A stretch of 64,000 nucleotides of DNA from Burkholderiaceae bacterium (GCA_027493945.1 JAOSJU010000001.1:2848484-2912483), one strand, 5' to 3'; shown: positions 4,642 to 57,295, counted from the stretch's first letter. Notes: generated from the sequence alone by a model not told the origin. Program-made: numbers and translations.

Positions 4642-7589
<2,948 letters not shown>

Positions 7590-26729: not shown

Positions 26730-27032
26730 TCAAATTCCCGGGGCGCGGTCGATTCTCGACAGCGGCACGTTGATGTCGAAGGTTCGCACGCGGGGATTCG
26801 TAATACCTGCTTCCTTGATCCGGACCTCATGCATTCGCCAGTACGCCATGAGGCTCGCCTCGTCCTGAAAGCAGTAGATCCCTCCAGCTTCACCGGTATC
26901 GGCGTTCTCGGTCCAGATCTTCCAGATGAGTCCTGGCTCCCTCGCAATGCTCTCTGCCAATCCGATGAGCCTCTCGCTCATCTCGGCTCCGAACGGCCCC
27001 ACAGTGCGAAAATCGACCTGCAGCAGCTTCAT
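26730..27032 (-). CDS. YdhR-like monooxygenase
   Basis: MKLLQVDFRTVGPFGAEMSERLIGLAESIAREPGLIWKIWTENADTGEAGGIYCFQDEASLMAYWRMHEVRI. Confidence 0.75.
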   Translation of the reverse strand: MKLLQVDFRTVGPFGAEMSERLIGLAESIAREPGLIWKIWTENADTGEAGGIYCFQDEASLMAYWRMHEVRIKEAGITNPRVRTFDINVPLSRIDRAPGI

Positions 27033-27897
27033 GCACTCCTCCTTTCACGTCGCCCCTTCTGCATCACCGGAACCCCGCGGCGCGTCGAGCCGATGCCGTA
27101 CCCCTGTTGGTAGGACGCGCGCGCGATGATCCAGTACTTGGCCAGCCACCCGGCGCCTGTTCCGGACAATGCCGCGGCGATGAACGCAATCGCACCGAGC
27201 GTCGGGATCGAGATCCCGAGGATCAGCAATGCGATCGGCAGTGCATGGCCTGCCAGCAGGTACAGCGGCTGGAGCCTTGACAGTTCATCGCGCGCCGCGA
27301 GCGGCGCCCCGGATAGGTGCAGTCGTCCGCAGTAGTGCGACCACGTATACGCGCGTAACGTCAGCAGCGCGATCAGCAGGTAAGGAAGCCATCCGGTGCT
27401 CTGTCCGCCTGCGCCGAACGCAAGCGCCAGCGCCGCGCCTTCGGCGAGTCCGGTCGACACGATCAGGGGCGTGAGCGCGGGTTCGCGCCACGCGACGATT
27501 CCCTTGGCGGCGCGAAGCATGCGCGCCTGGCAGTACAGGAATACCAGTCCGACCAGTGCCGAAGCCTGCACGAGCCCCGGCACCCGGGCGGCAACCCCGG
27601 CCAACGCCAGGGCAAACAGCAGGACGGCTGCCGCCGCCTCACGCGTCATCCACGAGGTCTCGGCATGAAAGAACACATTGGGCGCCCGCAGCGGTCGGCC
27701 AAGTTCCAACCCGACGAGCGCCAGGCCCGCGGCGATCATCGCCAACGCGAGCAGCGTCATCGCAACCGTCGGTGCGGCCGGGTACGACTTTCGAGCACTG
27801 CGACGGCCAGAAGCCCGCAGCCGGCCCCGCCGAGCACGAAGTTCCCGGCGGCGCGCCAGTCCCAGTGCGTCTGGACTCGCGACAGGACATGCTTCAT
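27029..27897 (-). CDS. DMSO reductase anchor subunit (DmsC-like), apparent 1-nt frameshift near 27778-27781
   Basis: N-term MKHVLSRVQTHWDWRAAGNFVLGGAGCGLLAVAVLESR and C-term VAMTLLALAMIAAGLALVGLELGRPLRAPNVFFHAETSWMTREAAAAVLLF in different frames; start overlaps ferredoxin stop. Confidence 0.82.
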
Positions 27898-28541
27898 TTC
27901 TCGTCCCACAGGTAGAAGAAACCCGGTTCCGTACCCAGTTCTTCGTGCATCCGGAACCAGTCGTTCTCCTCGAGCAGTCGGGCAACGTTGCTCTTCGGGT
28001 CTTCGATATCGCCGAAATGCAGCGCGTCGCCGATGCAGGCGTTGACGCAGGCGGGCGTGGCGTCGGAATCGACCCCGGGCACGAGACCCCTGGCCTTGCC
28101 CTCGTCGATGCGATCGGCGCAGAACGTGCACTTCTGCGCCACACCGATGCGCTGCTGATCGAACACTTTCGCTTCGCTGTCGAGCGGATCATCTCCGTAC
28201 GCGAACCGCGCTTCGCTCACCTTGTAGCGGGCCTGATAGGGACAGGCGACCGCACAGTAGGCACAGCCGATGCAGAGGTCGTAATCCATCGTAACGATGC
28301 CGTCTTCGCGCTGACCGGTTGCCGTGGTCGGACACACCTCCATGCACGGCGGATCCGCACAATGCTGGCAGCCCACCGGCATGAAGGTACGGCGGACATT
28401 GGGGTAGTCACCCCATTCGACGTCGATCACCTTGCGCCATTGAACGCCCGGCAAGGTGGCATTGGTATGTCGACACGCAGCGGTGCAGGTCTGGCAACCG
28501 ACGCAGCGCCGAAGATCAGCGACCATCACGTAGCGGGTCAT
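27894..28541 (-). CDS. 4Fe-4S dicluster electron-transfer subunit (DmsB/PhsB-like)
   Basis: CVGCQTCTAACRHTNATLPG...CQHCADPPCMEVCPTTATG...CIGCAYCAVACPYQ...CTFCADRI motifs. Confidence 0.93.
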   Translation of the reverse strand: MTRYVMVADLRRCVGCQTCTAACRHTNATLPGVQWRKVIDVEWGDYPNVRRTFMPVGCQHCADPPCMEVCPTTATGQREDGIVTMDYDLCIGCAYCAVACPYQARYKVSEARFAYGDDPLDSEAKVFDQQRIGVAQKCTFCADRIDEGKARGLVPGVDSDATPACVNACIGDALHFGDIEDPKSNVARLLEENDWFRMHEELGTEPGFFYLWDEK

Positions 28542-31291
28542 CGAGTGGCTCCCAGACGACGTATGCGCACCTTGATCGCATCTACGCTCGACCCCGTCCC
28601 ATCCATGAGGTCGGTCGCCATCGGCACCAGGCTGTTGAGGCTCGGCGTCTTCAGATCCTTTGCATAGGGCGTCTTCCAGTGGCCGAACTGACCGATCATC
28701 ACGATGACGTCCGGACGCACTCCCTGGCGCAGAATCGCCCTGCCCGCGGTGCTTCCGATCGGCGAACTCACCTCGATCTCGTCCCCGTCGGAAATGCCGA
28801 GCTCGCGCGCCCGGCTCGCGTTGATCTGGATGCCGCCGTGACCAATGACGTTGTCGGCAACCTCCTTCATGAGCTGGATCGAGACGTTGTTGCCCCACGA
28901 GTACTGCATGCTGCGTGAGGTAAGCACCCAGAAGGGATAGTCCGAAGCCTTGACGTCGAAGTTCCGCTCCAGGATCTCGTCCCAAAGGGCATTGAGGTCC
29001 TTGAATTCCGGCAGCGGTTCGTACTCCTCCAACTGCCGATCCCACCACGTCACGCCCTGCTCGTGCAGACGGTTCGCGAGTTGTCGACCGATGCGCAACA
29101 CGCGTTCCTGGTACGGCAGTTCGTAGCGAAGCCCTTGGTCGACCATGCGCGGATGCAGGTACCACTTGATTCGGGGAAACGGCTTCACGCGGAATCCGTG
29201 CTGCTTGAAGTACTCCAGGCCATCGCTTTCGCGGCCGTCTGTGACTTCCCAACTGGCGGCCCGGCACACGGCGTCCCAGATCGCTTCGGCGTCGTGCTGC
29301 CGATCGAGCGCGAGCGAGAAATCGTAGCCCTCGCCCTTGAGCGGGATCGGAAAGACGCCGAACCCGGCGTTGAGCATCGCGTTGAATTCGCCGAGCAGGC
29401 CGATACGCCGGGCGAGTTCACCGGCGATCCAGCTGAAATCGCGCGCCTCCCCACGCGGTGCCGCGACAGGCTGACGCAGCACCCACCCCTGATGGTCGTA
29501 GTACTGCTCGAAATCCTGCGTGCCCCCCATGCGTGTCAGTTGCAGCCCCTCGAGATCCATGCAGTCGGGCAGCAGGACATCCGCAAAATGGCTGGTCTCG
29601 TCGATGGTGTAGACGAAGGACAGTTGGAACGGGAACTCCGCGATGGTTTCCGCCAGACGCTCGGTGTCGGAGAACGAGATCAGGGGGTTGCACCGATAGA
29701 CAATCCATACGTCCGGCGGTTTCGGCTTGCCCCAGGTCTGCGCCGCCCTGCCCTGCAGCCGCATCCGGGCGAGCGTGCTGCTCCCGAGCGGCTGGCCGTA
29801 CGGGCCGGTTCCGGTGTGCGGTATCAGCGTCGTGTGGCCGTGCCGCACCTCCGGGGTCGCCTGCCAGTGGGCCTTGTCGGTGGGATTGAACGGATGCGCC
29901 ATGAATCCGTCTTTGCCCGGCGTACACGACGCCATCCGGTCGATTTCCGGCCCGACGATCATCGACTTGGTGCCCGGGAGGCTGCCCGGAACCTCCAACG
30001 CGCCGACCAGCACCTGCAACACGGTGCGCGCCCAGACGCACTCGTAGGAACCCCACCCGTTGTTGACCGTCTTACCCAGCATGATCGCGACCGGCCTGAG
30101 CGGCATCACCCTGCCCTCGATCTCATGCGTCTGGCCGATGCACGCTTCCGACAGGAAGTCGTTGGCAACGCGGCGAATCTGGTCGGCGGGTACGTCGCAA
30201 ATGGTCGCCGCCCACTCCGGCGTGAAACCGCGGACATGCTCGACCAGCAGTTGATGTGCCGTTCCGACCTCCGCGTCGACATGGTTCCAGGTCTGGTCGT
30301 CCGCGCCCGTCTCCACGCCGCTGGCCTTGAAGCGGCCGACGAGGGACGGCTCCACGCCCGGCGTGTCAAAGGGCACGGCCCGCCCGCTCCTGCGATCCCA
30401 AAGCAACGGCTTGCCACTGTCCGGGGCGCGCAGGTAGTAGCCATTGGGTGCCACCAGATACGGGGCCGCAGTGCGATCCGCAAGGAACGCGGTATCGAGA
30501 TCCGCGACGCTGTGCTCATGAAGCAGCACGTGGATCATCGCGAACAGGAATGCCGGATCGGTCTTGGGCCGGATCGGTATCCACTCCGCCGCCGTGGCGC
30601 CCGTAACCGAGAGATGCGGTTCGATCTGGATACGACGCAAGCCTCGGACACGTGCATCGGCCTGGCGGCGCACGCCGGTCACGCCACCGGATGCGTCGAT
30701 GTTGTGTCCGAACGAAACGATGTAGTTGCACAGCGGCGTATCGGGAGCCACGATGAAGCCGCGGTGCCAAAGCTCCCCATACGAGTGTTCGGCGTGTTCG
30801 CACTTGACGGTCGCACCGCCCCCCAGGCTGAAGTCGATCGGCCCTCCCCAGGCAGCGAAGAGCGCCGGGAATGCGCCCATGAAGAAGAGCGGTGTGCGCG
30901 CCCCGCCGGTCGTAAACGCCAACCGCGGGTCGCCGTTCTCGTCGACCAGTCCACGATCCCGAATCGCGCGCATCCGGCCGGCGACGATTTCCAGCGCCTC
31001 GTCCCAGCCGATCTCCACCCAGCCCGGATCCTCGTTCCTGCCCTTTCGCGGATTGGTCCGCTTCATCGGCCTGAGAATGCGGTTCGGGTTGTATAGCTTC
31101 TGGATCAGTCCGTACGGCTTGACGCATACCTTGCCGTCGGCCGGATGCACGCCCTTGGCGCCGAAGTTGGGCTCGACGCGGGTCGCGACACCGTCGACCA
31201 CCTCGACGGTAAGCATGTCGGGACCATTGAAGCACTGGAAACAATAGGTCGGAACCTTGCGCTTTCCCTGCCCGGAAGCTGTCACCATCGG
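28538..31291 (-). CDS. Molybdopterin (DMSO reductase family) oxidoreductase catalytic subunit
   Basis: MVTASGQGKRKVPTYCFQCFNGPDMLTVEVVDGVATRVEPNF...KVCVKPYGLIQKLYNPNRILRPMKRTNPRKG; C-terminal molydopterin-binding domain INASRARELGISDGDEIEVSSPIGSTAGRAILRQGVRPDVI. Confidence 0.92.
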   Translation of the reverse strand, partial: PMVTASGQGKRKVPTYCFQCFNGPDMLTVEVVDGVATRVEPNFGAKGVHPADGKVCVKPYGLIQKLYNPNRILRPMKRTNPRKGRNEDPGWVEIGWDEALEIVAGRMRAIRDRGLVDENGDPRLAFTTGGARTPLFFMGAFPALFAAWGGPIDFSLGGGATVKCEHAEHSYGELWHRGFIVAPDTPLCNYIVSFGHNIDASGGVTGVRRQADARVRGLRRIQIEPHLSVTGATAAEWIPIRPKTDPAFLFAMIHVLLHEHSVADLDTAFLADRTAAPYLVAPNGYYLRAPDSGKPLLWDRRSGRAVPFDTPGVEPSLVGRFKASGVETGADDQTWNHVDAEVGTAHQLLVEHVRGFTPEWAATICDVPADQIRRVANDFLSEACIGQTHEIEGRVMPLRPVAIMLGKTVNNGWGSYECVWARTVLQVLVGALEVPGSLPGTKSMIVGPEIDRMASCTPGKDGFMAHPFNPTDKAHWQATPEVRHGHTTLIPHTGTGPYGQPLGSSTLARMRLQGRAAQTWGKPKPPDVWIVYRCNPLISFSDTERLAETIAEFPFQLSFVYTIDETSHFADVLLPDCMDLEGLQLTRMGGTQDFEQYYDHQGWVLRQPVAAPRGEARDFSWIAGELARRIGLLGEFNAMLNAGFGVFPIPLKGEGYDFSLALDRQHDAEAIWDAVCRAASWEVTDGRESDGLEYFKQHGFRVKPFPRIKWYLHPRMVDQGLRYELPYQERVLRIGRQLANRLHEQGVTWWDRQLEEYEPLPEFKDLNALWDEILERNFDVKASDYPFWVLTSRSMQYSWGNNVSIQLMKEVADNVIGHGGIQINASRARELGISDGDEIEVSSPIGSTAGRAILRQGVRPDVIVMIGQFGHWKTPYAKDLKTPSLNSLVPMATDLMDGTGSSVDAIKVRIRRLGATR

Positions 31292-31338
31292 TTTCTCCTT
31301 CGCACAGGCCGGCGGATGCATCGACGACGGACTGTCGG

Positions 31339-32493
31339 TCAGAACGAGGTTTCACCTCCGTGGTAGATCTTGATTGGTACGCCGGACAAGGGCTCGCCGC
31401 CATCGCTGCCGACCCTGTAGGTTTCCTGGAAGTACAACGAATGCGTGCGATCCTCGGTCATGATGTGCGGATGCATCGAGCACACCATGTTCTCGGGAAG
31501 CACGAAATCGTGCCCCTCGCCGATGCGAGGCATCTCGATCATGGTCATGCCGATCGAATGGCCAGAAACGTGGCCGGGGCGATACCCGCGCTCCTCGAAT
31601 GGCCTGGTGCAGACCCTGTGCACTTCTGCCGCCGTGGCACCCGCCTTCATGTGGATCCGGGCCAGCTCATGGAACTCCTGGTAGGCCACGAACATTTCCT
31701 GCGTGACGGCGTCGATGCCCCTCGGCGCCATGACGCGGGAGAACTCGACCCAATGTCCGCCTTCACCCGCGACCTCGAGACCGTACAGCACAGCATCGGT
31801 ATCTTCGAGCCTGCGCCCGGTCGGAAATACCATTTGCGGCTTGATCGACCCGTTCGGGCCCCAGCAGATCATGTCCATTGTCTTGCGGGCAGTACCGGCA
31901 GCCGCGAAATGATTCTCGGCCACCCCCATCAGTTCCGCCTCCGTCCTTCCCGGCCGGTAGGCGCCCAGGACAGCCAGCACCCCCGCCTTGTTGATGGCCA
32001 TCGAATGACGCACCGACACGAGTTCCTCTTCGCTCTTGCAAGCGCGCGCATAGTCGAAGGACGTGTCGAAGTCGACGGTCTCGATGCCGGCACTCCGAAG
32101 CGCCGCATAGTCGCGAACGTTCATCACGTAGTCGAGGCCGTAGACGCCGGTCCTGCCTGCACCTCGGGCTTTCAGGTAGCCCGCCATCCATTCGCCGCAA
32201 TGCGGCGGAAACTCGCGCGTCTCGACGAAGGTCGCGCTGTGGTCGCCGACCCAGGTCGCCTCGCGGGGGAACACGGCGACCGGATCACCGTCGAGCGGCA
32301 CGATCACATACGCGTACCGATGCAGGATATGGAAGCCGCACAGGTAGCGCACAGCGCCCTCGAACCCGGTGTACTCACTGCCGCTGACGACCAGGTAGTC
32401 CAGGCCGGCCTTCTGCATCGCGCCGCGAACATTGGCATAGCGGCGCTCGATTTCCGCACGGGTCGGAGCGTAGCGATTGACGTACTTGCTCAT
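31339..32493 (-). CDS. M24 (pita-bread/creatinase-like) family protein
   Basis: RYANVRGAMQKAGLDYLVVSGSEYTGFEGAVRYLCGF...PGHVSGHSIGMTMIEMPRIGEGHDFVLPENMVCSMHPHI. Confidence 0.82.
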   Translation of the reverse strand: MSKYVNRYAPTRAEIERRYANVRGAMQKAGLDYLVVSGSEYTGFEGAVRYLCGFHILHRYAYVIVPLDGDPVAVFPREATWVGDHSATFVETREFPPHCGEWMAGYLKARGAGRTGVYGLDYVMNVRDYAALRSAGIETVDFDTSFDYARACKSEEELVSVRHSMAINKAGVLAVLGAYRPGRTEAELMGVAENHFAAAGTARKTMDMICWGPNGSIKPQMVFPTGRRLEDTDAVLYGLEVAGEGGHWVEFSRVMAPRGIDAVTQEMFVAYQEFHELARIHMKAGATAAEVHRVCTRPFEERGYRPGHVSGHSIGMTMIEMPRIGEGHDFVLPENMVCSMHPHIMTEDRTHSLYFQETYRVGSDGGEPLSGVPIKIYHGGETSF

Positions 32494-32501: not shown

Positions 32502-33416
32502 TTAGTCCTTCAGTGTCCACGAGTGTTCGAGCCCCTTGATCATCGTGGCCATGGCCTCGTTGAACGGGGTTGGCACGCCGATCTCGCGCCCGATCCTGGC
32601 GATGCCACCATTGAGCGCGTCCACTTCGGTCGCACGATGCGCAAGAACGTCCTGGAGCATGCTCGGCTTGTGCAGGTAGGCAACTTTCTTGCCATACTCG
32701 AGAAGTGCAACCGGATCGCCGTCCAGTTCGACTTCCAGCGCTTCGGCTACGGCGATTCCTTCCTTCGCCAGTGCCAGCATGACAGGCCAGACTTGCTCGC
32801 AAGCGACACCGTGCGGCAGCCGGGTCAGAGCCCCCATCGCATTCGAAGCCGAGTTGAAGATCAGCTTGGTCCATAGCGCACCACGCGCATCGGGCATCGC
32901 CGGGCACGTCATGCCGGAACGATCGATCGCATCGGCGAGCCGCTTGACCTCTTCCATGGACGCAGGCTTCGGCGCGAAGGGCCCGATCCAGGTCTTGCCG
33001 CCTGTGTCCTGGTTAACGACCCCCGGTGCAGTCACGTGTCCGGCAGGAAACGTGGTGCCGAGGATTACCCGCGGCACGTACTCGGCAATCACCTCCTCGT
33101 TGCCGACGCCGTTCTGCACCGAGCAGACTGCGCCGTCCCGGAACACCCCGGCGGTAGTTTCTATGGCCCGTCTCGTGTACAAGGTCTTGGTGGCAACGAT
33201 TCCGAACTCGCACTCCGGAATCTGACTCGCGTCAGTGTACGCGCGCACCGGCGACACGAAATCGCTCAGACCGGTCAGGCGCAGGCCATCCCGGTTGATG
33301 GCGTCGACATGTGCCGCGTCGGGATCATAGGCCCAGACTTCAACCTCCGGCAGACGAGCGAGATGCGCGCCGAAGAGGCTGCCGATCGCTCCGCATCCGA
33401 CAATGCAGACTCTCAT
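32502..33416 (-). CDS. Ketopantoate reductase (PanE/ApbA) family protein
   Basis: MRVCIVGCGAIGSLFGAHLARLPEVEVWAYDPD...VQNGVGNEEVIAEYVPRVILGTTF...ALWTKLIFNSASNAMGAL. Confidence 0.9.
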   Translation of the reverse strand: MRVCIVGCGAIGSLFGAHLARLPEVEVWAYDPDAAHVDAINRDGLRLTGLSDFVSPVRAYTDASQIPECEFGIVATKTLYTRRAIETTAGVFRDGAVCSVQNGVGNEEVIAEYVPRVILGTTFPAGHVTAPGVVNQDTGGKTWIGPFAPKPASMEEVKRLADAIDRSGMTCPAMPDARGALWTKLIFNSASNAMGALTRLPHGVACEQVWPVMLALAKEGIAVAEALEVELDGDPVALLEYGKKVAYLHKPSMLQDVLAHRATEVDALNGGIARIGREIGVPTPFNEAMATMIKGLEHSWTLKD

Positions 33417-33607
33417 GCAAGGACTCCATTCACGGTTCTTCGGTCGATCCGCCCGGCCATTGGCCGGTACGGGCCACGCCGGATCGACGATTCGCTCCCG
33501 ACCGGGAGCGCCCAATGGGTGCCAGCATAGGCGGGGCACCGCTGCATTTCTTGCCTGCAAGAGCGGCGCGCGTTGATTGGCAGCGCGCTCGACGAAGCGG
33601 GGTACCT

Positions 33608-34264
33608 CTAGCTACAACCACCCACGACGGAACTGAGCGGACGGCGTCCCTTCCGCTCGCGTATGGCGGCCGGCTTGCCGAGCACCAGCAGCATCTGGGC
33701 CTGCCACGTGTCCGGAACGCCCAACGCATCACTGACTACGTCGGGACAAAAGAGAGGCGCGCACATGACGCAGGCACCCAATCCCTCCGCATGCGCACCA
33801 AGCAGCAGGTTCTGAGCGGCCATCGCAGTGCTTTGAACTGCCATTGAATGTTCCGCCGCTCGGCGCTTTGCATCCGGGTACTTGTCCATGTCCTCGAGAC
33901 TCATGAACACGAAGATGCAGACAGGTGCTTCGAGTATTCTAGCCTTCGAACGTTCAACGTCCGCGTCGACGGCACCGGATTCATCCCCGTCCGCAAGTCG
34001 TGCCGCCCGGAGCCGATTACCCATTGCGCATGCAACTGTCATCTTTCGTGTCGGCTCCGTGACGATCAGGAACCGCCATGGTTGCCGGTTGTGCGCCGAA
34101 GGTGCCCATGTTGCGGTCTCCAAGACGCGGTCGAGAACAGCTTCGCTTATCGGTTCTTGCAAGAAGCGACGAATTGACTGTCGAGATCGCAGGAAGGCGT
34201 GCAACGAAGCCGACACGCGATCGCCGGAAATGACATGATGGGATTCGAAGACAATGGACTGCAT
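33608..34264 (-). CDS. Nitroreductase-family protein resembling FbiB C-terminal domain
   Basis: SRQSIRRFLQEPISEAVLDRVLETATWAPSAHNRQPWRFLIVTEP...RSKARILEAPVCIFVFMSLEDMDKYPDAKRRAAEHSMAVQSTAMAAQNLLLGAHAEGLGACVMCAP. Confidence 0.78.
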   Translation of the reverse strand: MQSIVFESHHVISGDRVSASLHAFLRSRQSIRRFLQEPISEAVLDRVLETATWAPSAHNRQPWRFLIVTEPTRKMTVACAMGNRLRAARLADGDESGAVDADVERSKARILEAPVCIFVFMSLEDMDKYPDAKRRAAEHSMAVQSTAMAAQNLLLGAHAEGLGACVMCAPLFCPDVVSDALGVPDTWQAQMLLVLGKPAAIRERKGRRPLSSVVGGCS

Positions 34265-34737
34265 TTGAGAGAATATGGTCAAAACGGTCTGTCGCTCTCT
34301 ACGAAGATTCGCAACAGGAATCGCGATCCCGGGATGTATCGGACGAAGAGGCGAAACGAGGCTCCGTGCTTTGCGCGAGCAACTCGGGATAATCGAGGCG
34401 AGCGCATGGGCGAATGTCAAGTTTCCGTTTCACGTCATCATGAGTCTGCTCCGGTATCGCAAGATGTCCTACCGAGGCGTGGAGAAGAGCGAGGCACAGC
34501 CCTAGGCGCCATTCGAACCGGCCAATCCGGGACTGGCGTGCGGACGTTTACCTGCGTCTGACGCCCGAAATCCATTCGGAGCGGTCCAGGCAAAGTGCGC
34601 CGTGAAGATGCTGAGTCCCAGTCGTCTCCGGTACCTAGTTGGCGCTTTCGGTGGCGGTGGCGCGCGATCGTTGCTCGAGGCATTGCCTTCGGCTGCGGAA
34701 GCGCACCTGATCAGGGTGTTCCGGAAGATGAACGCTG

Positions 34738-35687
34738 CTAGTCCGCGCCGTCTTTTCGGGTCTGGGCCCTGAACTGATTGGGCGACATGCCGAACCGCGC
34801 CTTGAAAGCTCGGCTGAAATGCGCGGAATCACTGAAACCGCGCTGATAGGCGATCTCGCAAATCGTCAGTCCAGACATCGCGCGATCGAGCAGGTCGTCC
34901 CGCCCCGCTCGCAGCCTTCGCTCCCAGAGGGCCTTGCTGACAGTCGCCCCGGATTGCTGGAACAGACTATGCAGGTGCCGAACGGAAACGTGATTCGCTA
35001 CCGCAAGTTTCGCAGGCGTCAGCTCGTGGTCGCAGAAATGCGAATCGAGATAGGCGAGAATCCGCGAAAGGCGAACAGACTGGTTTTTCTCGTTGCGATC
35101 GGCAATGGTTTGGCCGCGCGACCTGACCACCGATCCGAGCAGCGACAGAAAACTGTCCGCAAGCGCGAACTTCTCAATGACGGATAGACAGCCCCCTGAC
35201 CGACCGTCAGCGATTTGAGCATGCTGATGACCACGGGCACAAGACCATCACTCCCAAAGGCCATCGCGCATATCTCGTAGTCTTCGCGACCGACCACCCT
35301 TTCGTGAAAGACGCGATGCGGGATCCGCAGAATGATCTTGCAGCCTTTCTCGGGGTAAGCGACCGCGTACGGAATGCCGCCCGGGACAATCGCAATTGCG
35401 TCGCGCTCGAGTGTGAATGCCTGGCTGCCCTGGCGGAATTGAGCCGTCCCGTCGATCTGCAAGTGCAGTAGAAAGTCGGAGATCTGATCGGCATGAATGT
35501 CTTGATCACGTCGATAGATTGTCACCGGATCGCTCTCGATACGGTGCATGATCAGCCCGGAGAAATCGAAACGGTTCACAACGTAGTGGTGGAACCGTTC
35601 GCCGTGCTGCTCCGGCAGGACGCGCACCACCGCATTCGATACCGTCTGGAACAAGTGCGGCGGGTCTGCGACAGGAACCGCAACCAT
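34738..35687 (-). CDS. AraC-family transcriptional regulator, apparent 1-nt frameshift near 35192-35196
   Basis: N-term AraC_binding-like; C-term HTH VRLSRILAYLDSHFCDHELTPAKLAVANHVSVRHLHSLFQQSGATVSKALWERRLRAGRDDL...GFSDSAHFSRAFKARFGMSPNQFR in another frame. Confidence 0.85.
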
Positions 35688-35824: not shown

Positions 35825-37027
35825 TCACCGGGAGGCCGCAACGATGTTCCGGAATTCTTCGTCGGTGACCAATCGGCGTGTACGGGTCGACAGATTCTTG
35901 ACCTCGGCAAGGATCGCCGGAAACCGCTCGGCGGCGATGGAGAGCCCGAGTTCCTTGACCTTGATCTCGATGTTCGCCAAACCACTCTTCTTGCCCAGCA
36001 CGATTCCGCGTCGTGCGCCGACGATTTTGGACGAATACGGTTCGATCGCATCGGGCATATGAAATTGGGCAGCCACGGCGCCACTCTCGCGCACGAAGAG
36101 CGACTCGCCTACCACTGGCTTCCAGCGATCCACCGAGTAACCGCCTGCCCTGCATACGGCTTCGGACACTGCGCGCGCCCTGGAAAGATCGATCTCGACC
36201 GGAACGTTGTAAAGCACCTGCAGCGCCAGCGCCACTTCACAGATATCGGCATTGCCGGCACGCTCGCCCATGCCGTTGATCGTTCCCTGAATCCACGAAG
36301 CACCGCCACGTACCGCTGCAATTGCAGCGGCCGTCGCCAGACCGAAGTCATTGTGTCCGTGCCAATGGATCGGCACCTCTGACCCGACCCATGATGCGAC
36401 CCGCCGGACGAGCAACTCGACCGCCTCGGGCGCGCATGCGCCGATGGTGTCCACGACCGACACCTCCGCAGCACCCGCAAGCAGCGCTGCCTCGTAGACC
36501 CTCTGAAGGAAGGCAGGATCCGATCGCGTAGCGTCCACGGGAAAGAAGTTCACCCGCATTCCGTTGGCGCACGCGTGGCCGATCGTGTCCGTCAGGCGCG
36601 CGATCACCGTCTCGCGCGTGAATCCGTAGGCCGCCATCTTCGGATCGCTCGTCGCAATTTCGATCAGCACCGAAGAGGTTCCTAGCTCCACGTGCGCATC
36701 GATGTCAGCCTTCACCGCCCGCGAGAAGCCCCAGATTTCCGCTTCCAACCCTGCGTCCAGGATCCGGCGAACGGCATCGGTGTCCTCGTCGGAGACACGG
36801 GGAAAGCCCGACTCGATCCTTCCTACACCGAGATCGTCGAGCCGTCGTGCGATCTCGACCTTGGCATCTGGCGAGAAGACGATTCCGACGGCCTGCTCGC
36901 CGTCGCGCAAAGTGGTGTCATAGAAGCGAACCGGTCGGCTGCGATCGAAGCCCGACTGAACCTCCTCCCGCCGATTGACGTCGCCGATCCAGATCGATTC
37001 GGAGGTAATTGCACTGGCAGCAGTCAT
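35825..37027 (-). CDS. 2-isopropylmalate/homocitrate synthase-like (HMGL-like) enzyme
   Basis: RPVRFYDTTLRDGEQAVGIVFSPDAKVEIARRLDDLGVGRIESGFPRVSDED...VPIHWHGHNDFGLATAAAIAAVRGGASWIQGTINGMGERAGNAD. Confidence 0.88.
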   Translation of the reverse strand: MTAASAITSESIWIGDVNRREEVQSGFDRSRPVRFYDTTLRDGEQAVGIVFSPDAKVEIARRLDDLGVGRIESGFPRVSDEDTDAVRRILDAGLEAEIWGFSRAVKADIDAHVELGTSSVLIEIATSDPKMAAYGFTRETVIARLTDTIGHACANGMRVNFFPVDATRSDPAFLQRVYEAALLAGAAEVSVVDTIGACAPEAVELLVRRVASWVGSEVPIHWHGHNDFGLATAAAIAAVRGGASWIQGTINGMGERAGNADICEVALALQVLYNVPVEIDLSRARAVSEAVCRAGGYSVDRWKPVVGESLFVRESGAVAAQFHMPDAIEPYSSKIVGARRGIVLGKKSGLANIEIKVKELGLSIAAERFPAILAEVKNLSTRTRRLVTDEEFRNIVAASR

Positions 37028-42600: not shown

Positions 42601-42632
42601 GTCTTCCTCGCCAAGATCCTGGTCCGCACAAC

Positions 42633-48053: not shown

Positions 48054-48117
48054 CTCGCAACGCCTCGCTCGAAGTGCTCGCCAGTCGCGGATCGGATGCC
48101 GTTACCCGGCAACGCAG

Positions 48118-48867
48118 TCAGTCGACCCGGCGAGCCCGCGACGGACGGTCCCGCGGCGCAGGAACCCCCGCGGGATCGTGTCGATAAGCGCGCTCGGCCT
48201 GCACTGCCTCGTCACCCACCAGCACCTCCGCATCGCCGGCTTCCAATGCGTCCAGCATGATCGCGACCGCCTCGTCCACCGTCATCTTCGGTATCGACAG
48301 GTTGCGGATCATCGCCGTATCGACCGCGCCAGGGAGCGCCGCAAGCACGTGTACGCCCGAAGGGGCGAGTTCGGCACGCAGAATCTCGACGGCCTTCAAG
48401 AGCGCGGCCTTCGAGACACAGTAGGAACCGAGGTCAGGAATGGCGGCGCGCGCCAGCGAGGAAACGACGACCAGCATGGCCGACGGCCGGTGCTGTCGTA
48501 GCATCGGCACGAAGGCCCGGAAGACCCGCAGTGCACCGAGGTAGTTCACCTCGATCTCCGGGGCTGCCGCATCGATCGACGCTCCGGCGAGCAGTCCCTG
48601 GCACGCACTCATACCGGCGTTGCTGACGAGGAGATCGGCATCTCCGAAACGGGCAGCGACACGGTCGATGTCCTCTTGACTGGTAACGTCGCACGTCACC
48701 CAGACGCACCGCGACGCAAGCCCCGTCTCGATCGGTTCGATGTCCGCGAGATCCCGATCCAGTGCATAGACGCGTCGTGCACCGCGCCGCAGAAGGCCCC
48801 GTACGATACCGTGCCCGAGCCCACGAGCCGCGCCTGTTACGATCGCGGTGCTGCGGTCGATCTTCAT
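48118..48867 (-). CDS. SDR family oxidoreductase
   Basis: STAIVTGAARGLGHGIVRGLLRRGARRVYALDRD...LGSYCVSKAALLKAVEILRAELAPSGVHVLAALPGAVDT. Confidence 0.9.
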   Translation of the reverse strand: MKIDRSTAIVTGAARGLGHGIVRGLLRRGARRVYALDRDLADIEPIETGLASRCVWVTCDVTSQEDIDRVAARFGDADLLVSNAGMSACQGLLAGASIDAAAPEIEVNYLGALRVFRAFVPMLRQHRPSAMLVVVSSLARAAIPDLGSYCVSKAALLKAVEILRAELAPSGVHVLAALPGAVDTAMIRNLSIPKMTVDEAVAIMLDALEAGDAEVLVGDEAVQAERAYRHDPAGVPAPRDRPSRARRVD

Positions 48868-48884
48868 CCGACGTGGCTCCGGTA

Positions 48885-50063
48885 TCAGTCGGGGCGGACG
48901 TCGCGCAACACGTCGAGAACCGTGTACCCAGGCTTGCCACCCTTGGAGACGACCTTGACGAAGTAATAGTCGAGATAGGGGAATCGCTTCTCAGGGTCGA
49001 AGCGCAGGCGGCCTTGCGGGGTCTTGATGTCGACTGCCTTCAGGGCGCCGACCAAGGATGCGGGATCGCTCCGTCCGCCGGTCGCGACGAGCGCCGATTC
49101 GATCATCTGGCCGATCGTGAAGCCGAGCGCGGAATAGTAGCTGTTGGGTACCTTTCCGTATTCACGCTTGTACGCCTCGATGAACTGCTTGTTCTCCGGA
49201 ATGTCCAGATCGTCGAAATAGTGCGTGACAGCCACGGCACCGAGAGCTGCGTCGCCCATCGCCGGCAGCAATGCGCCGTCGACTGTGGCGACCACCGCCA
49301 CAAGCGGCATCGAGTCGCGCTGGCCATACTCATGCCTTGCCTTGACGAACTTGATCGCATCGCCCCCTGGGATCGCGGCGAACACCGTCGCCCCCTGCGG
49401 CAAGCCGGTCAGGAAGGGGGCGAAATCCGCAGTTCCGAGCGGCACGTAGACCTCTTTCTTCACCGATCCGCCTGCGGCCGTGAATCCGTCGCGAAAACCG
49501 TCGGAAGCACGCGTACCGAACGTATACTTGGAACTCACGATGACGGCGTCCTTGTACCCGAGCTTCTTGGCGGCGTACTCGCCCATCAGCCGGCCAAGCT
49601 GCACGTAGTTCCAACTCGGCACGAGCATATTCGGCTGTTTGGCGCTCTCCGGTGCCTGTCCCACCAGGGGAATGTTCGGGATGCCCTTGCGCCCGATGTA
49701 GTCCTGGGTCGCCGCGATCACGTGCCCGAGGAACGGGCCGACCACGATATCGACCTGGTCGCGCTCGACGAGCTTCTGGATCTTCGTCACGCCGGTGCTC
49801 GGGTCGCCCGCATCGTCCTCGATGACGAGTTCGACCTTGCGGCCGGCGATCTGATAGCCCGCTTGCTTGAGACGCAGCTTCAGCCCATTCACCTCGTCAT
49901 TGTTGATGTCGGCGACACCGCCTGTCAACGAAGCCAGAACGCCGATCCTGAACGGCGCGGCAGATTGGGCGAACGCGACCAGCGGTGCCAGGGAGACCGC
50001 GATGGTGGCGCCGACAGCACAGATCATCGTCGCGCGTCTCGGACTGAACTTGTTGCTCGTCAT
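48885..50063 (-). CDS. Branched-chain amino acid-type ABC transporter substrate-binding protein
   Basis: PFRIGVLASLTGGVADINNDEVNGLKLRLKQAGYQIAGRKVELVIEDDAGDPSTGVTKIQKLVERDQVDIVVGPFLGHV. Confidence 0.9.
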   Translation of the reverse strand: MTSNKFSPRRATMICAVGATIAVSLAPLVAFAQSAAPFRIGVLASLTGGVADINNDEVNGLKLRLKQAGYQIAGRKVELVIEDDAGDPSTGVTKIQKLVERDQVDIVVGPFLGHVIAATQDYIGRKGIPNIPLVGQAPESAKQPNMLVPSWNYVQLGRLMGEYAAKKLGYKDAVIVSSKYTFGTRASDGFRDGFTAAGGSVKKEVYVPLGTADFAPFLTGLPQGATVFAAIPGGDAIKFVKARHEYGQRDSMPLVAVVATVDGALLPAMGDAALGAVAVTHYFDDLDIPENKQFIEAYKREYGKVPNSYYSALGFTIGQMIESALVATGGRSDPASLVGALKAVDIKTPQGRLRFDPEKRFPYLDYYFVKVVSKGGKPGYTVLDVLRDVRPD

Positions 50064-50147: not shown

Positions 50148-51143
50148 TCAGGCTCGACCTTGGGCATCACCGGGAACTTCTGCGCGAATCGCCCAGCTTG
50201 CTTCGCGGGCCTTGACCAGACGGTAGAGAGACTCGCTGATTGGAACCGGCACGCCAATCTCCGACGCCGTTCGGACAATCGCGCCGGTAATCCAGTCGAT
50301 TTCGGTCTTCCGCCGTGCTCTCACGTCCTCGAGCATCGAAGGGGCATGAGCATAATCGTCATTGCCGGTCTGGCCATGGGTGGTCGCCTCGACGTTCATC
50401 GCCCACGGGTCCTCGAACAACCGGATTCCCTTGGCAGCCGCGACCCGTTTACCCTCCTCCATCATTGCAAAGACGAGGTGCCCGAGGTCAGATGGCCTCT
50501 CTCGATCGGCGAATATCTTGACGTGCGGCAGATCGGTCACGGCCGAGACGCTGTTGACCGTCGAATTGAATATCAGCTTCGACCATTGGGCGGGCAACAG
50601 GTCAGGAAACGCACGCGCTCTGAGTCCCGCAGTCTCCAGCAGCGACGCGATCTGCCGTACCTGCTCGTAGCCCGGATCGCTTCCCGCCCACGGCCCCATC
50701 CAGGTCTCGGTGTCGAGCTCGTATTCGACATGAATGTCGGAGTGACGGATTCCACTCATGAACGTGACCGAAGAGACAATCGGCCACGGCCCGTACTTCG
50801 CGATGACGTCTTCGCATCCAAGGCCGTTCTGAACGGTCATCATCAGCGCACCCGGAAAGTGCCCCTCCAGGCTGCGCGCGGTCTCCTCGACTGCGCCTGC
50901 CTTTGTGGCAACGATGACTAGATCCACGTCGCCGAGATCGGACGGGTCGGTCGATGCAAGCACCTTTGCGATGCGATTGCTCTTTCCGCTGACCTCGAGT
51001 CCGTGCCGATTCAACTGGTCGGCATGCTCACAACGCCGTGTCAGGACGGTCGAGACCGCGACGCTCGCCAGATGCGCGGCAAAAAGACTTCCGATCGCAC
51101 CCGCCCCGGCCACACAGGTTCGCTTGATTCGTTTCATCGTCAC
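50148..51143 (-). CDS. Ketopantoate reductase (PanE/ApbA) family protein, second paralog
   Basis: RTCVAGAGAIGSLFAAHLASVAVSTVLTRR...VQNGLGCEDVIAKYGPWPIVSSVTFMSG...AQWSKLIFNSTVNSVSAVTDLPH. Confidence 0.9.
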   Translation of the reverse strand: MTMKRIKRTCVAGAGAIGSLFAAHLASVAVSTVLTRRCEHADQLNRHGLEVSGKSNRIAKVLASTDPSDLGDVDLVIVATKAGAVEETARSLEGHFPGALMMTVQNGLGCEDVIAKYGPWPIVSSVTFMSGIRHSDIHVEYELDTETWMGPWAGSDPGYEQVRQIASLLETAGLRARAFPDLLPAQWSKLIFNSTVNSVSAVTDLPHVKIFADRERPSDLGHLVFAMMEEGKRVAAAKGIRLFEDPWAMNVEATTHGQTGNDDYAHAPSMLEDVRARRKTEIDWITGAIVRTASEIGVPVPISESLYRLVKAREASWAIRAEVPGDAQGRA

Positions 51144-51439: not shown

Positions 51440-52030
51440 ATGGCGACCGCAGTCGACCGAGTGCAGCGAATCACCGATCACCGAGAACACTGGTTTGGAA
51501 GGACGATAGTGTCGATCGTCAACGCGTCCGAAAAGGTGCTGGAGGCTCTCACCGCCCTCTTGCTGTTCCTGCTGATGATCGTCACGGTTGTCGACGTCGG
51601 CGGCCGTTACTTTCTTGGGAAGCCGTTGCCGGGATCAGCCGAAATCAGTGCAATCCTGCTCGCGCTGGTCGTGTACGGAGCCTTTCCGCTGGTCAGTCAG
51701 CGGCGCGAGCATATCACCGTCGACCTCTTTTCCTTCGCACCCGGTTCGGTGCTTGGCCGCGCCTCGTCGGCGATCGCACTCACGTTCACCGCGTTCTGCT
51801 CGCTCTGGATCGCCACCGAAGTCTGGCTCCTGGCGCGCGATCTTGCAACACGCGGGGACACCAGCGCGTTCTTGAACATCCCGTATGCTCCGGTTGCGTT
51901 CTTCATGACGATTGCATCCGTGATCAGTGCAGCCTTCGCTCTGCTGCGGCCTATCGTTTCCACGAGCGACTACAGCAGCGTCGTCGACGACGTTGGTGAC
52001 GCCGACGCAAGGCAAGGAGAGCGTCGATGA
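51440..52030 (+). CDS. dctQ: TRAP transporter small permease (DctQ)
   Basis: LLLFLLMIVTVVDVGGRYFLGKPLPGSAEISAILLALVVYGAFPLVSQRREHITVDLF. Confidence 0.9.
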   Translation: MATAVDRVQRITDHREHWFGRTIVSIVNASEKVLEALTALLLFLLMIVTVVDVGGRYFLGKPLPGSAEISAILLALVVYGAFPLVSQRREHITVDLFSFAPGSVLGRASSAIALTFTAFCSLWIATEVWLLARDLATRGDTSAFLNIPYAPVAFFMTIASVISAAFALLRPIVSTSDYSSVVDDVGDADARQGERR

Positions 52031-53320
52031 CAGTCGCGCTGACGGGCTTCGCGCTCGTCTTTTTGCTGCTGTTCGCGGGCGTGCCAATCGGCTTCGGCAT
52101 GCTTGTCGTCGGCGTTGCAGGCTTTGCCTACCTGACCGACTGGGATGCGGCGCGGGCAATGCTGGGTCAACTCGCTTTTGAGACGCCGCTATCATACGGC
52201 CTGACGGTCGTTCCGCTATTCATCCTGATGGGCAACTTCATCACGGCATCGCGGCTCTCAAACGAACTGTATCGTGCTGCGCACGCGCTGCTTGGCCATC
52301 TGCGCGGAGGGCTCGCACTAGCCACGCTGCTCGCGTGCGCAGGCTTCAGCGCAGTCTGCGGCTCGAGCCTCGCGACCGCCGCAACGATGTCGAGAGTTGC
52401 GATGCCATCGATGCGCAAATTCCGCTACGCCGATTCCCCGGCCACCGGCTCGGTGGCCGCCGGCGGCACGTTGGGGATCCTGATCCCGCCGAGCATCGTG
52501 CTGGTGCTCTACGGCATCATGACGAACAACGACATCGGAAAGCTCTTCGTCGCCGGCGTGTTGCCCGGATTGCTTGGGCTCGGCCTATACATGGTCGCCG
52601 TGCTGGTGATGACCACTGTGCGGCCAGATTTCGGCCCACCGGGCCCGCGCGCATCCTGGAGAGAACGCTTGAATGCAGTCGCTGGTGTCTGGGGCGTCGC
52701 GCTGCTTTTCGTTGTTGTGATCGGCGGGATCTACGTAGGTGCGTTCACGCCGACGGAGGCAGCAGGGATCGGCGCTGGCGGCGCGTTCGTATTCGCGCTC
52801 GCACGCCGTACGTTGACTGTGCGCGACATGGTATGTGTGCTGCTCGAGACAGCACGCATGACGACTGCGATCTTCGTCATCCTGATCGGCGCATTGCTTT
52901 TCGCCAACTTCGTGAATATCGCAGGCCTGCCCGATGCGCTGATCGGATGGGTGAACGCGATGGGTACCTCGTCGACGGCGATCATCGTCACGATCACCAT
53001 CATCTATATTTTTCTGGGCTGCATTTTAGAAAGCATGTCGATGCTGCTGCTCACTGTACCGATCTTCTATCCAGTCGCGATCGGCGCCGGGTTCGATCCA
53101 ATCTGGTTCGGTGTGCTGATCGTCGTCGTCATCGAGATCAGCCTGATCACGCCGCCGATCGGGATGAACGTCTTTGTAATGAAGTCGACGGCTGCCGGAC
53201 GTGGCTACGTCGACAATCTTCCGAGGGGTCGTCCCGTTCATCGTCGCCGACCTCGTGCGCGTCGCGACCCTGATCGCCGTCCCGTCGATCGCACTGTTCC
53301 TACCTTCCTTTATGAGATGA
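52027..53320 (+). CDS. dctM: TRAP transporter large permease (DctM), apparent 1-nt frameshift near 53195-53201
   Basis: AGFSAVCGSSLATAATMSRVAMPSMRKFRYADSPATGSVAAGGTLGILIPPSIVLVLYG; restored C-term VATSTIFRGVVPFIVADLVRVATLIAVPSIALFLPSFMR*. Confidence 0.9.
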
Positions 53321-53333
53321 CAAGGAGAACCCT

Positions 53334-54362
53334 ATGCGAAAATTGCCCCTGCTGACATTGCTCGTCTTGGGGTGTGCCTCGAGCCTGCCCGCATCGGCCC
53401 AGACCGTGCTGCGCGTCAGCAACTGGTTGCCGCCGACGCACTTGATCACCACCGAGATCCTCCAGCCATGGGCGCGAAACGTCGAAAAGGAAACCGAGGG
53501 TCGCGTCAAGGTGCAGATCATCCCGGCGCTCGGAAAGCCGGAAGCACACTTTGATCTGGTGCGCAAGGGCGTCGCTGATGTCGCGATGAGTGTCGACGCA
53601 TACACCGCCGACCGCTTCAAACTGCCCGATGCCGCGAAGCTGCCGTTCCTCTCGGACGATGCCACGTCAACGACAGTCGCGTACTGGCGCATTCACCAGA
53701 AGCACTTCGCCAAGCACGGCGAATTCGACGGCGTCAAGCTGCTCACGCTATGGACGCACGGACCTGGCTACCTCCATACGTCGACCAAGCCGGTAAGGGC
53801 GCTCGGCGACGCGAGCGGCCTGAAGATTCGCGCTTCGGGTGGTATGGGGCAAAAGATCGCCGTCGCACTCGGGGTCTCACCGGTATTCGCACCTGCCAGC
53901 CAGGCGTACGAGATGCTCTCGAACGGTGTCGTCGACGGTGTGCTCTTCAACAACCAGTCAATTCCCGCGTTCAAGATCGACAAGATTCTCAAGTACGCGT
54001 TGGTTGTCCCGGGCGGGCTTTATCGCGACACGCATTACGTGATCATGAACCAGAAGAAGTACGACTCGCTATCGGCCGAGGACCGTGCAGCGATCGACCG
54101 AGTTTCGGGCGAGACATTCGCGTGGCTCGCAGGGCGGGCATGGGACGCGGGGGAGCAGAGTGCCAGCAAGGTCATGCGCGATTCCGGCTACGAGTTCATC
54201 TCTCCCTCGCCTGAGTTCGCAAAACAGCTCGCGGATCGACTGAACCCGCTGGAACAGGAATGGATCGAACGCGTCAGGCCGATGGGCATCGACGGCAAGG
54301 CAGTGCTCGTCGAACTCCGTGCCGAGATCGAGAAAGTCAGGGCCGAGAACGCGAAGAAGTGA
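53334..54362 (+). CDS. dctP: TRAP transporter substrate-binding protein (DctP)
   Basis: Signal peptide; LRVSNWLPPTHLITTEILQPWARNVEKETEGRVKVQIIPALGKPEAHFDLVRKGVADVAMSV. Confidence 0.9.
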   Translation: MRKLPLLTLLVLGCASSLPASAQTVLRVSNWLPPTHLITTEILQPWARNVEKETEGRVKVQIIPALGKPEAHFDLVRKGVADVAMSVDAYTADRFKLPDAAKLPFLSDDATSTTVAYWRIHQKHFAKHGEFDGVKLLTLWTHGPGYLHTSTKPVRALGDASGLKIRASGGMGQKIAVALGVSPVFAPASQAYEMLSNGVVDGVLFNNQSIPAFKIDKILKYALVVPGGLYRDTHYVIMNQKKYDSLSAEDRAAIDRVSGETFAWLAGRAWDAGEQSASKVMRDSGYEFISPSPEFAKQLADRLNPLEQEWIERVRPMGIDGKAVLVELRAEIEKVRAENAKK

Positions 54363-54397: not shown

Positions 54398-55808
54398 ATG
54401 AGCGACGACCGAACCTTGCTGGCACAGGCGCTCGCCTCGGTCGTCGGCCCCGCCGGCCTGTTGCGCGGCAACGAAATCGGTCCTGCGTATCATGAGGACA
54501 TCAGCCACGACCGCTGTGGCCGACCGTGGATGGTACTGCGTCCTTCGTCGACTCACGAGGTCGCCGAATGCCTGCGCCTGTGCCACAGCTTCGGGCAGCC
54601 AATCGTCCCGCAGGGTGGGATGACCGGGCTCGTTTCGGCGGGTACACCAGAGGACGGGGAAATCGTCCTGTCCACGCAGCGTCTCGCGCGCATCGAGGAG
54701 ATCGATCGCGCTGCGGCGGCGATCACTGCCCAGGCCGGCGTCACGTTACAGCAGGTGCAGGAGGCAGCCGATGAAGCGGGCTTCTTTTTTTCCGCTGGAC
54801 ATCGGGTCACGGGGCTCATGCACCGTCGGCGGGAACGTGTCGACAAACGCGGGCGGCAACCGCGTGCTTCGATACGGCATGATGCGTAACCTGGTCCTGG
54901 GTTTGGAGGCGGTACTTGCCGACGGTACGGTAATTGACGCCACGCACAAGATGACGAAGGACAACGCGGGCTACGACCTGAAGCAGTTGTTCGTTGGCAG
55001 CGAGGGCACGCTCGGCGTCGTCACGCGCGCGGTGCTTGCGTTGCACCCAAAGCCATCGAGCCAGGCGGTTGCCTTTTGCAGCGTGCCGGACTTCTCCTGC
55101 GCGATTGAGTTGCTGCTGTTTCTGAAGGGTGCGCTCGGCGGGCGGTTGAGCGCCTTCGAGGCGCTCTGGAGCAATGCCTACGCGCTGATCCTCGAGTCCG
55201 TACCTCGGGTACGCGCACCGCTACCGGTCGGGAGTCCGCTGTATGTGCTCGTGGAGAGCCTCGGCTCGGATCCACGAACCGATGTACCGGCATTCGAGAA
55301 AGCACTGGAGGTGGCCCCGGAGAACAACTGGGTCACCGACGTCGTGATCGGCCGGTCGACACGCGAGATGCGTGCCCTGTGGGAAGTGCGCGACGCGGTG
55401 TCCGAGGCGGTTCTCAAGCTGCGCCCATTCATTTCATACGATGTCAGCATGCCAGTCGGCGCGATGGACTTGTTTGCTTCGTCGATCGTAGAGCGCACCG
55501 CACGTGACTGGCCAGGCGCGAAGATCGGACTATTTGGTCACATCGGTGACGGGAACATCCACATCGTCACCGACATCGGTGCCGACGGGACACCGCGCAC
55601 TGTTGTCGATGAATTCATCTATGACGCGACACGCGCGGCAAGAGGCTCGATTTCAGCCGAGCACGGCATCGGCTTCCAGAAGCGCGCCTGGATTGGTCAT
55701 ACACGAAGCCCGCAGGAAATCGCCTTGATGCGGGCGATCAAGCGAACGCTCGACCCTGACTGTCTGTTGAGCCGCGGACGGATCTTCCCAATCGATGCGG
55801 CTGGCTGA
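54398..55808 (+). CDS. FAD-linked (GlcD/D-lactate dehydrogenase-like) oxidase, apparent 1-nt frameshift near 54785-54791
   Basis: LRPSSTHEVAECLRLCHSFGQPIVPQGGMTGLVSAGTP; second frame TVGGNVSTNAGGNRVLRYGMMRNLVLGLEAVLADGTV...HIGDGNIHIV. Confidence 0.88.
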
Positions 55809-55861
55809 ATCTTGTTCGGCAGCGCCGCGGGTTTCCCGAAGCCGGCGCCGGGATGGTGTGT

Positions 55862-57295
55862 TCAACGCCTGGACTGCGGCAGCAGCGCAGGCAATCCACA
55901 GCGCAGGAAGCGGCCGTTACCCGGCCGCCCGATGAACTCCAACCCGTCCCAGACAACCTCGCCGCGCAATAGCGTGTACGCCGGCCACGCCGACAACGCC
56001 ATTCCCTCGTAGGGTGTGTAGTCGCACGCATGGTGCAGCATCTCATTGCGCAACACGATTGGGCGCTCGTCCCAGACCACGATGTCGGCGTCCGCGCCCG
56101 GGGCGATCGTGCCCTTGCGTGGGTACAGTCCATAAGCCTTCGCCGGATTCGTCGCCGTCAGCTCGACGAAGCGACTGATCGTGATCCGCCCTTCCAGCAC
56201 ACCTTTCGAGAACAGCAGCGGCAGACGCGTCTCGATGCCCGGGATGCCATTCGGGATATACGGAAACGCCACCTCCTTCCCGCCCGGCCGCTTCCCGCTG
56301 GTACCGTCGAACACGAACGGCGAATGATCGGACGAGAACACCGTGAATAGCCCCTCAGCCAGTCCGTTCCAGATCGCCTGCTGGCTCGAAGAGTCGCGTG
56401 GCGGCGGACTGCAGACGCATTTCGCGCCTGAATAATCATCATCAATGCCGAGGTCCTCTGCCGTCAGCAACAGATACTGTGGGCATGTTTCGGCGAACAC
56501 CTTCAACCCACGCGCGCGCGCGTATCGGATCTGCTCAACCGCCTCCGAGCTCGACACGTGTACGATCAGAATCGGGACGTCTACCAATTCGGCCAGCGAA
56601 ATCGCTCTGTGGGTCGCCTCGCGCTCGACGAGCATCGGGCGCGAAGCAGCGTGAAAGCGCGGAGCAGTCAGCCCTGCGGCCGTGAGGCTCTCGGTGAGCC
56701 GGGCGATGGAGTCCGAGTTCTCGGCGTGGACCATCGCCATCGCACCGTGCTTCTTCGCGACGGCCAGCAGTTCGAGCAGCTGTCGGTCGTCGAGCCTGAG
56801 TCCTGGATACGTCATGTACAGCTTGAATGAACTGTAGCCTTGCGCCACCAATCGGGGGATCTCCTCGTTGAGCGCCTCCTGCGCGGGGTCGGCGACAATC
56901 AGATGGAACGCGTAGTCGATGCTGGCGCGGCCCTCGGCGCGCGCGTGATAGTCCTCGAGCGCGTGCGTCAATGTTCCGCCACGCTTCTGCTCAGCGAACG
57001 GAATGATAGTGGTGGTTCCACCGCAGGCGGCGGAGCGCGTTCCGCTCTCGAAATCGTCAGCAAGCCGAATCGGCGGGGTCATAGGCTGAGCGAGGTGACA
57101 ATGCGTATCGACGCCACCCGGGGTCACGAAACGACCCGCCGCGTCGATCTCGCGTTCCCCTCGCGGCAGGTTCTCACCGAGAATCACGATGCGGCCGTTG
57201 CACACGCCGATATCGCAACGTATTGTGTCGCTCGCCGTGACGACAACTCCGTTGCGTACGACGAGTTCGAGAGGAAGGGGCAGATGCGGGCTCAT
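55862..57295 (-). CDS. Dihydropyrimidinase/hydantoinase-type amidohydrolase
   Basis: GRFVTPGGVDTHCHLAQPM; GYSSFKLYMTYPG (carbamylated-lysine region); VHVSSSEAVEQI; AETCPQYLLL; SSDHSPF. Confidence 0.9.
   Translation of the reverse strand: MSPHLPLPLELVVRNGVVVTASDTIRCDIGVCNGRIVILGENLPRGEREIDAAGRFVTPGGVDTHCHLAQPMTPPIRLADDFESGTRSAACGGTTTIIPFAEQKRGGTLTHALEDYHARAEGRASIDYAFHLIVADPAQEALNEEIPRLVAQGYSSFKLYMTYPGLRLDDRQLLELLAVAKKHGAMAMVHAENSDSIARLTESLTAAGLTAPRFHAASRPMLVEREATHRAISLAELVDVPILIVHVSSSEAVEQIRYARARGLKVFAETCPQYLLLTAEDLGIDDDYSGAKCVCSPPPRDSSSQQAIWNGLAEGLFTVFSSDHSPFVFDGTSGKRPGGKEVAFPYIPNGIPGIETRLPLLFSKGVLEGRITISRFVELTATNPAKAYGLYPRKGTIAPGADADIVVWDERPIVLRNEMLHHACDYTPYEGMALSAWPAYTLLRGEVVWDGLEFIGRPGNGRFLRCGLPALLPQSRR

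Follow-up and report, generated by a model that had tools for sequence, protein, structure and literature searches.

The window analysed here is a 64,000-nt stretch of DNA from a Burkholderiaceae bacterium (GCA_027493945.1, JAOSJU010000001.1:2848484-2912483). A preliminary description of it had set apart positions 26730-57295 as a candidate deazaflavin-linked catabolic island, and these limits coincide with a compositional island in the GC3 of genes in and around the block. Genes on the left side have a GC3 of 0.93-0.95 and those on the right side 0.91-0.95, against 0.64-0.82 for the genes measured from 27.0 to 57.3 kb; the 27.0-57.3 kb block is foreign by composition. Pfam and NCBIfam scans, by which gene families were assigned, recovered every family named in that description, and the near-single-strand run it reported is correct for the minus strand from 27.0 to 51.1 kb. 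The genes are as follows.

27029..31321, minus strand: Mo enzyme of the DMSO-reductase family, with Fe-S and DmsC-like subunits; accessory to the core and not conserved with it
31339..32490, minus strand: M24-fold hydrolase, start placed by alignment
32502..33560, minus strand: PanE1, ketopantoate-reductase family, annotated start too early
33608..34420, minus strand: protein of nitroreductase fold resembling the C-terminal domain of FbiB; candidate dehydro-F420-0 reductase
34738..35687, minus strand: AraC-family regulator, split by a frameshift; its orthologue precedes LLM in other clusters
35825..37027, minus strand: HMGL-family (homocitrate/isopropylmalate synthase-like) acyltransferase or aldolase
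37043..37858, minus strand: cyclase/kynurenine-formamidase-type amide hydrolase, in the slot of a PuuE-like hydrolase in most other clusters
37929..40349, minus strand: CofGH, fused FO synthase
40392..41664, minus strand: M20 metallohydrolase, relative of 5-nitroanthranilate aminohydrolase, with a frameshift
41680..42603, minus strand: FAH-family C-C hydrolase/decarboxylase
42633..43738, minus strand: Mer-like LLM oxidoreductase, predicted to be F420-dependent, its N-terminal part in another frame
43804..50063, minus strand: Liv-type ABC transporter (F, G, M, H, K) with a pair of SDRs; accessory to the core and not conserved with it
50148..51143, minus strand: PanE2, ketopantoate-reductase family
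51440..54362, plus strand: accessory TRAP transporter (DctQ, DctM, DctP)
54771..55808, plus strand: accessory GlcD-like FAD oxidase, an open frame without its N-terminus
55862..57295, minus strand: accessory dihydropyrimidinase-like hydrolase, the last low-GC3 gene and right end of the island

LLM, M20 and AraC are each split by one frameshift, which lies in a run of G near 43620 in LLM and at or near a G homopolymer near 41150 in M20. The housekeeping glycine-cleavage gene gcvP (window 4642-7589) is likewise broken into two overlapping frames, and cofD of the same genome is broken in the same way. Because gcvP and cofD show this kind of break, assembly indel errors are likelier than true gene decay as its cause in the three island genes. 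The host genome assembly (G000) is 4.28 Mb and an estimated 89% complete. A 102-nt direct repeat, 77% identical between its copies, lies at window positions 57379-57480, where the island ends on its right side, and 61396-61497. About 11 kb to the right of the island is an open frame resembling a serine recombinase (L130 4007-5326), a possible mobility gene.

The CofGH protein scores 1110.7 bits against the NCBIfam model for bifunctional FO synthase (PRK09234; curated cutoff 1018), and its search of the genome returned one match. A search for cofC, cofD and cofE elsewhere in the genome, suggested in the preliminary description, found all three together with Fno. They lie in a second low-GC3 locus about 440 kb from the island (G000:C1:3327600-3335140; L127 1635-9135), which also holds a TRAP transporter and has the order cofC-cofD-cofE. 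Fno scores 178.8 bits against a TIGR01915 cutoff of 149.8, and cofC was identified by BLAST to its L085 counterpart at 32% identity. F420 synthesis in this genome thus appears to be divided over two foreign stretches. The nitroreductase-fold protein has its top likeness, under cutoff, to the FbiB C-terminal domain, and its gene adjoins CofGH in two other Burkholderiales loci (L031, L037). It more likely belongs to F420 synthesis, and its resemblance suggests a dehydro-F420-0 reductase.

Since Fno, CofC, CofD and CofE are also encoded, the predicted product is F420 and not FO alone. Of these enzymes and CofGH, only CofGH lies within the island, and FO is a known photolyase antenna, which would fit FO being the working cofactor, or CofGH serving a photolyase. 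We regard either as highly improbable: the genome encodes CofC, CofD, CofE and Fno, and each of the nine cluster genomes tested has CofE or cofC/cofD (CofE in eight; in the ninth, cofC and cofD adjoin cofGH).

The best solved relatives of the island LLM protein, by comparison with PDB sequences, are all F420-dependent methylene-tetrahydromethanopterin reductases (Mer). Its predicted fold (mean pLDDT 80.6) gives the same picture, the eight top matches being Mer, followed by luciferase and F420-dependent glucose-6-phosphate dehydrogenases. The protein retains the Mer stretch GxGITxPYxRHP, which is suggestive only as a sign of F420 binding. Because its 158.2 bits against the Mer equivalog TIGR03555, obtained on a partial frame, fall below the curated cutoff of 348.7, we class the protein as Mer-like and not as Mer. 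The genome has two PF00296 genes, the island LLM and one at 1.93 Mb that, by eye, reads like an FMN-type YhbW relative; the island gene would then be the sole Mer/F420-type LLM of the genome. From its relatives by sequence and fold we infer that the LLM protein uses F420 rather than FMN. A PF04075 profile run on the genome gave no match, but the controls were equally silent, so the result does not speak for absence of the family.

Comparison with other genomes delimits the conserved part of the island. A core with the order LLM-FAH-M20-CofGH-(cyclase or PuuE-like hydrolase)-HMGL-PanE2-PanE1-M24, plus AraC, was found whole or in part in 13 other gammaproteobacterial lineages. We grouped the loci as 14 lineages, the window included; because a number of contigs are short, the lower of these counts are minimum values. 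LLM, M20 and FAH occur in all 14. CofGH occurs in 12, normally adjoining M20; it is cut by the contig end in G307 and absent from the 20 kb examined in G418. HMGL is found in eight lineages, the PuuE-like hydrolase, M24 and AraC in seven each, and each PanE in six, and a cyclase takes the PuuE-like slot in the window and in L088. The usual CofGH place holds a CofG-only gene in L085 and L131 (in L131 at 10886-12238, a paralogue of 450 aa and 44% identity), with a full cofE-cofD-cofC-cofGH set a few kb off. In L088 and L134 the genes cofC, cofD and cofE are found close to the end of the cluster that bears M24. An alphaproteobacterial locus (L087) has the order cofD-cofC-cofGH-LLM-PanE-FAH-M20 at lower identity, about 55% for LLM.

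This arrangement is sparsely distributed. A query with CofGH only returned 80 loci from named genomes, seven of which have an LLM of at least 400 bits; the same seven also hold FAH, M20, HMGL and other core genes, with varying completeness. The other 73 have no core neighbours at that level, and their best LLM score is 118 bits. With the LLM protein as query, the order of L056 yielded 12 carriers in 53 genomes and the order of Thiodiazotropha 4 in 195, while 369 genomes of the class gave two in addition to the window's own. CofGH was absent from the same-genus and same-family genomes searched. Proteobacterial F420 synthesis operons, in which fused CofGH stands with CofC/D/E, share the CofGH family and the cofC/D/E genes with the clusters described here; they differ in that the other CofGH loci examined are without the LLM-FAH-M20-HMGL-PanE-M24 set.

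Since other lineages have the core too, and keep CofGH at an unchanged position in it, the association of cofGH with catabolic neighbours is more than chance. The preliminary description had proposed a search for such co-occurrence of cofGH with a Mer-like LLM, FAH, M20 and PanE, the absence of which would have counted against it, and the synteny was found. Its picture of a catabolic island stands in the F420 link and the catabolic look, and has to be narrowed in extent. The course of reactions it put forward, with reduction ahead of ring opening and hydrolysis, is plausible as a hypothesis. The Mo-bisPGD complex, Liv ABC transporter, SDRs, TRAP transporter, GlcD-like gene and dihydropyrimidinase do not recur with the core in the other lineages. 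We take the genes for TRAP, Liv, the SDRs, dihydropyrimidinase and Mo-bisPGD as local additions, and the conserved pathway is the core from M24 to LLM, plus PanE2. In a tree of 101 CofGH proteins, built by a quick method with SH-aLRT support and no bootstrap, 14 of the 15 cluster-associated sequences, the window's included, form one group (SH-aLRT 99). The window's CofGH is in this group though the window belongs to a different order, and CofGH from other families of its order fall outside. The single CofGH clade and the foreign composition say that cofGH travelled together with the catabolic genes. One tree member, from a genome labelled Klebsiella pneumoniae (L079), groups with uncultured Gammaproteobacteria; that genome is probably a misnamed or mixed MAG.

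These data bear on whether the LLM might work with FMN, cofGH being a chance insertion of mobile F420 genes. Many LLM-fold proteins are FMN enzymes, and CofGH evolves faster than LLM and M20 in the clusters (60-68% vs 73-87%). However, the position of CofGH is kept in most lineages and its sequences form one clade, cofC/D/E lie within the same locus in some lineages, and the nearest relatives of LLM by sequence and by fold are F420-dependent Mer, all of which make the FMN alternative distinctly unlikely. The F420 link of the cluster is well supported, and we are highly confident that the core is a conserved, F420-linked operon.

The remaining core proteins give indications of the chemistry. 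With the intact L088 homologue as query, the nearest match of M20 in a PDB search is NaaA, 5-nitroanthranilate aminohydrolase (5k8m, E=4.9e-58), a relationship that makes activity on aromatic amines a candidate only. FAH matches FAH-family hydrolases and decarboxylases, and HMGL is closest to synthases (homocitrate, isopropylmalate). M24 has a distant match to aminopeptidase P and a poor structure model (mean pLDDT 51.9). The PuuE-like hydrolase of other loci (PDA) scores 113.4 bits against TIGR03212, below the curated cutoff of 424.6. PuuE-like hydrolases and cyclases both belong to families that hydrolyse amides, frequently cyclic ones.

Further hints come from variable neighbours. CoxL/M/S-type molybdenum hydroxylase subunits are encoded in five lineages, adjoining the cluster in three (L056, L159, L124) and near F420 genes in two (G307, L134). 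Among solved relatives, the L159 large subunit is nearest to CO dehydrogenase, with quinoline 2-oxidoreductase second. The window has no orthologue of the cluster-adjoining hydroxylase, and its relatives in the window's own genome are about 35-40% identical or less. In four related lineages (L156, L157, L158, L164) a pair of Rieske oxygenase genes stands close to the cluster instead, and three of these lineages also have a DMSO-reductase-family enzyme. Molybdenum hydroxylases of the CoxL/M/S kind often oxygenate N-heteroaromatic rings, and oxygen on such a ring would make it a better hydride acceptor. The variable neighbours hint at a substrate and name none.

We consider it reasonably likely that the core is a catabolic operon, F420-dependent and gained by horizontal transfer, through which an activated, probably N-heteroaromatic ring is reduced with F420H2, opened and cleaved. 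Three points are evident at the level of sequence: the core genes share one origin, the F420 route is complete, and the LLM is of Mer type. Along that route, FO would be made by the island's CofGH and converted to F420 by CofC, CofD and CofE of the second foreign locus; Fno would reduce F420 using NADPH, and the resulting F420H2 is expected to be used by the island LLM. In some lineages a molybdenum hydroxylase may first activate an aromatic acid, probably an N-heteroaromatic one, after which hydride addition by LLM would abolish aromaticity. The cyclase or PuuE-like hydrolase could then open a cyclic amide, the NaaA-like M20 could take nitrogen off as an amine, C-C bonds could be broken or made by FAH and the HMGL enzyme, and the PanE enzymes could reduce keto or aldehyde products, with AraC presumably governing expression. 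How the steps that follow reduction are ordered is guesswork. Against this scheme, a molybdenum hydroxylase near the cluster is not universal, and HMGL, PanE and M24 are absent from the sequenced stretch in some lineages.

We hold a catabolic role to be probable. Alternatively, the cluster could be biosynthetic, with LLM, HMGL (by chain-extending condensation), PanE and the hydrolases making a secondary metabolite with F420H2. HMGL is nearest to synthases, some carriers are sponge- or bivalve-associated bacteria (hosts inferred from names), and F420-dependent LLM reductases act in actinobacterial antibiotic pathways (PMC8498797). Yet assembly enzymes such as NRPS or PKS were not seen in the annotated loci, and most lineages do not share a dedicated exporter. 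The several hydrolases, the AraC regulator and the uptake systems are what a catabolic cluster typically has. We therefore think biosynthesis unlikely.

That the substrate of the catabolic operon is N-heteroaromatic is somewhat less than an even bet. A purine, hydantoin or dihydropyrimidine, degraded via Mo hydroxylase, PuuE-like allantoinase, M20 and dihydropyrimidinase, would agree with the PuuE-like PDA and with the XdhA-like enzyme and NCS1-type permease near the Thiodiazotropha clusters, whose loci carry XdhABC-like genes. This substrate class is nevertheless quite improbable, because M20 is NaaA-like in the PDB search, a nearby aminotransferase is a SufS-type desulfurase and not a ureidoglycine aminotransferase, and the breakdown of purines offers no role for FAH, HMGL or PanE. 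A purine pathway was dropped as the main reading on account of the desulfurase and M20. The dihydropyrimidine or hydantoin chemistry raised in the preliminary description gained no specific support, as the dihydropyrimidinase does not recur with the core.

Several known systems resemble parts of the proposed operon. In Actinobacteria, picrate degradation likewise has LLM enzymes pass hydride from F420H2 to an aromatic ring (PMC8498797). The npd systems for picrate and dinitrophenol catabolism in Rhodococcus and Nocardioides are alike in using an F420H2 LLM hydride transferase catabolically on an electron-poor aromatic ring, but they are actinobacterial, whereas here the first enzyme of cofactor synthesis is within the operon. 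An npd system groups npdG and two LLM hydride transferases in a single cluster; the island has a single LLM, and Fno is about 440 kb away. To our knowledge, and comparing by description, npd systems lack the CofGH, FAH, M20, HMGL and PanE set. The reductive nicotinate pathway proceeds through 6-hydroxynicotinate, tetrahydro-6-oxonicotinate and 2-formylglutarate with a ferredoxin-linked reductase and an enamidase. It shares the proposed logic, in which a Mo hydroxylase acts, the ring is reduced, a cyclic amide and an enamine are hydrolysed and a formyl acid is reduced, and is set apart, by description, in its other protein families, with F420 LLM plus PuuE-like hydrolase and M20 here. Degradation of 5-nitroanthranilate is similar in that M20 is nearest to NaaA, a hydrolase of an aromatic amine, and different in that a NaaB-type ring dioxygenase was not seen in the cluster.

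A literature search with little reach into subscription journals found no description of the LLM-FAH-M20-CofGH gene set. We tentatively propose an undescribed proteobacterial F420H2 pathway, mobile between distant bacteria with its own FO synthase, in which hydride transfer dearomatises a hydroxylated N-heteroaromatic acid ahead of hydrolysis and cleavage. According to a 2021 review, no F420-dependent enzyme had been studied in bacteria outside Actinobacteria, and the role of F420 there needs experiments (PMC8498797). A small conserved set with its own FO synthase, carried by genomes that make F420 as well, points to one defined F420 pathway in Proteobacteria, which makes the question testable. 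The identity of the substrate would tell what carrier bacteria use F420 for and, if the proposal is true, this would be the first defined job for F420 in Proteobacteria.

The carriers are distantly related, partly animal-associated marine bacteria. Because they include lucinid-clam symbionts (Thiodiazotropha) and probable sponge symbionts, their distribution suggests that marine animals may commonly contain the compound. Homarine (N-methylpicolinate) was considered as a candidate substrate because of the marine hosts; a homarine pathway paper (Nat Microbiol 2026) is cited in PMC13390433.

Some lineages show other local variation. The Thiodiazotropha loci (L029, L165, L166) have 3-hydroxyacyl-CoA dehydrogenase and enoyl-CoA hydratase genes after HMGL, where others have PanE. 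Three of the four lineages with a Rieske oxygenase pair also encode a squalene/oxidosqualene-cyclase fusion protein. An acyl-CoA dehydrogenase recurs near the cluster or near cofCDE in L085, L133 and L139, as does a metallo-beta-lactamase-fold pair, which is found in L056 as well.
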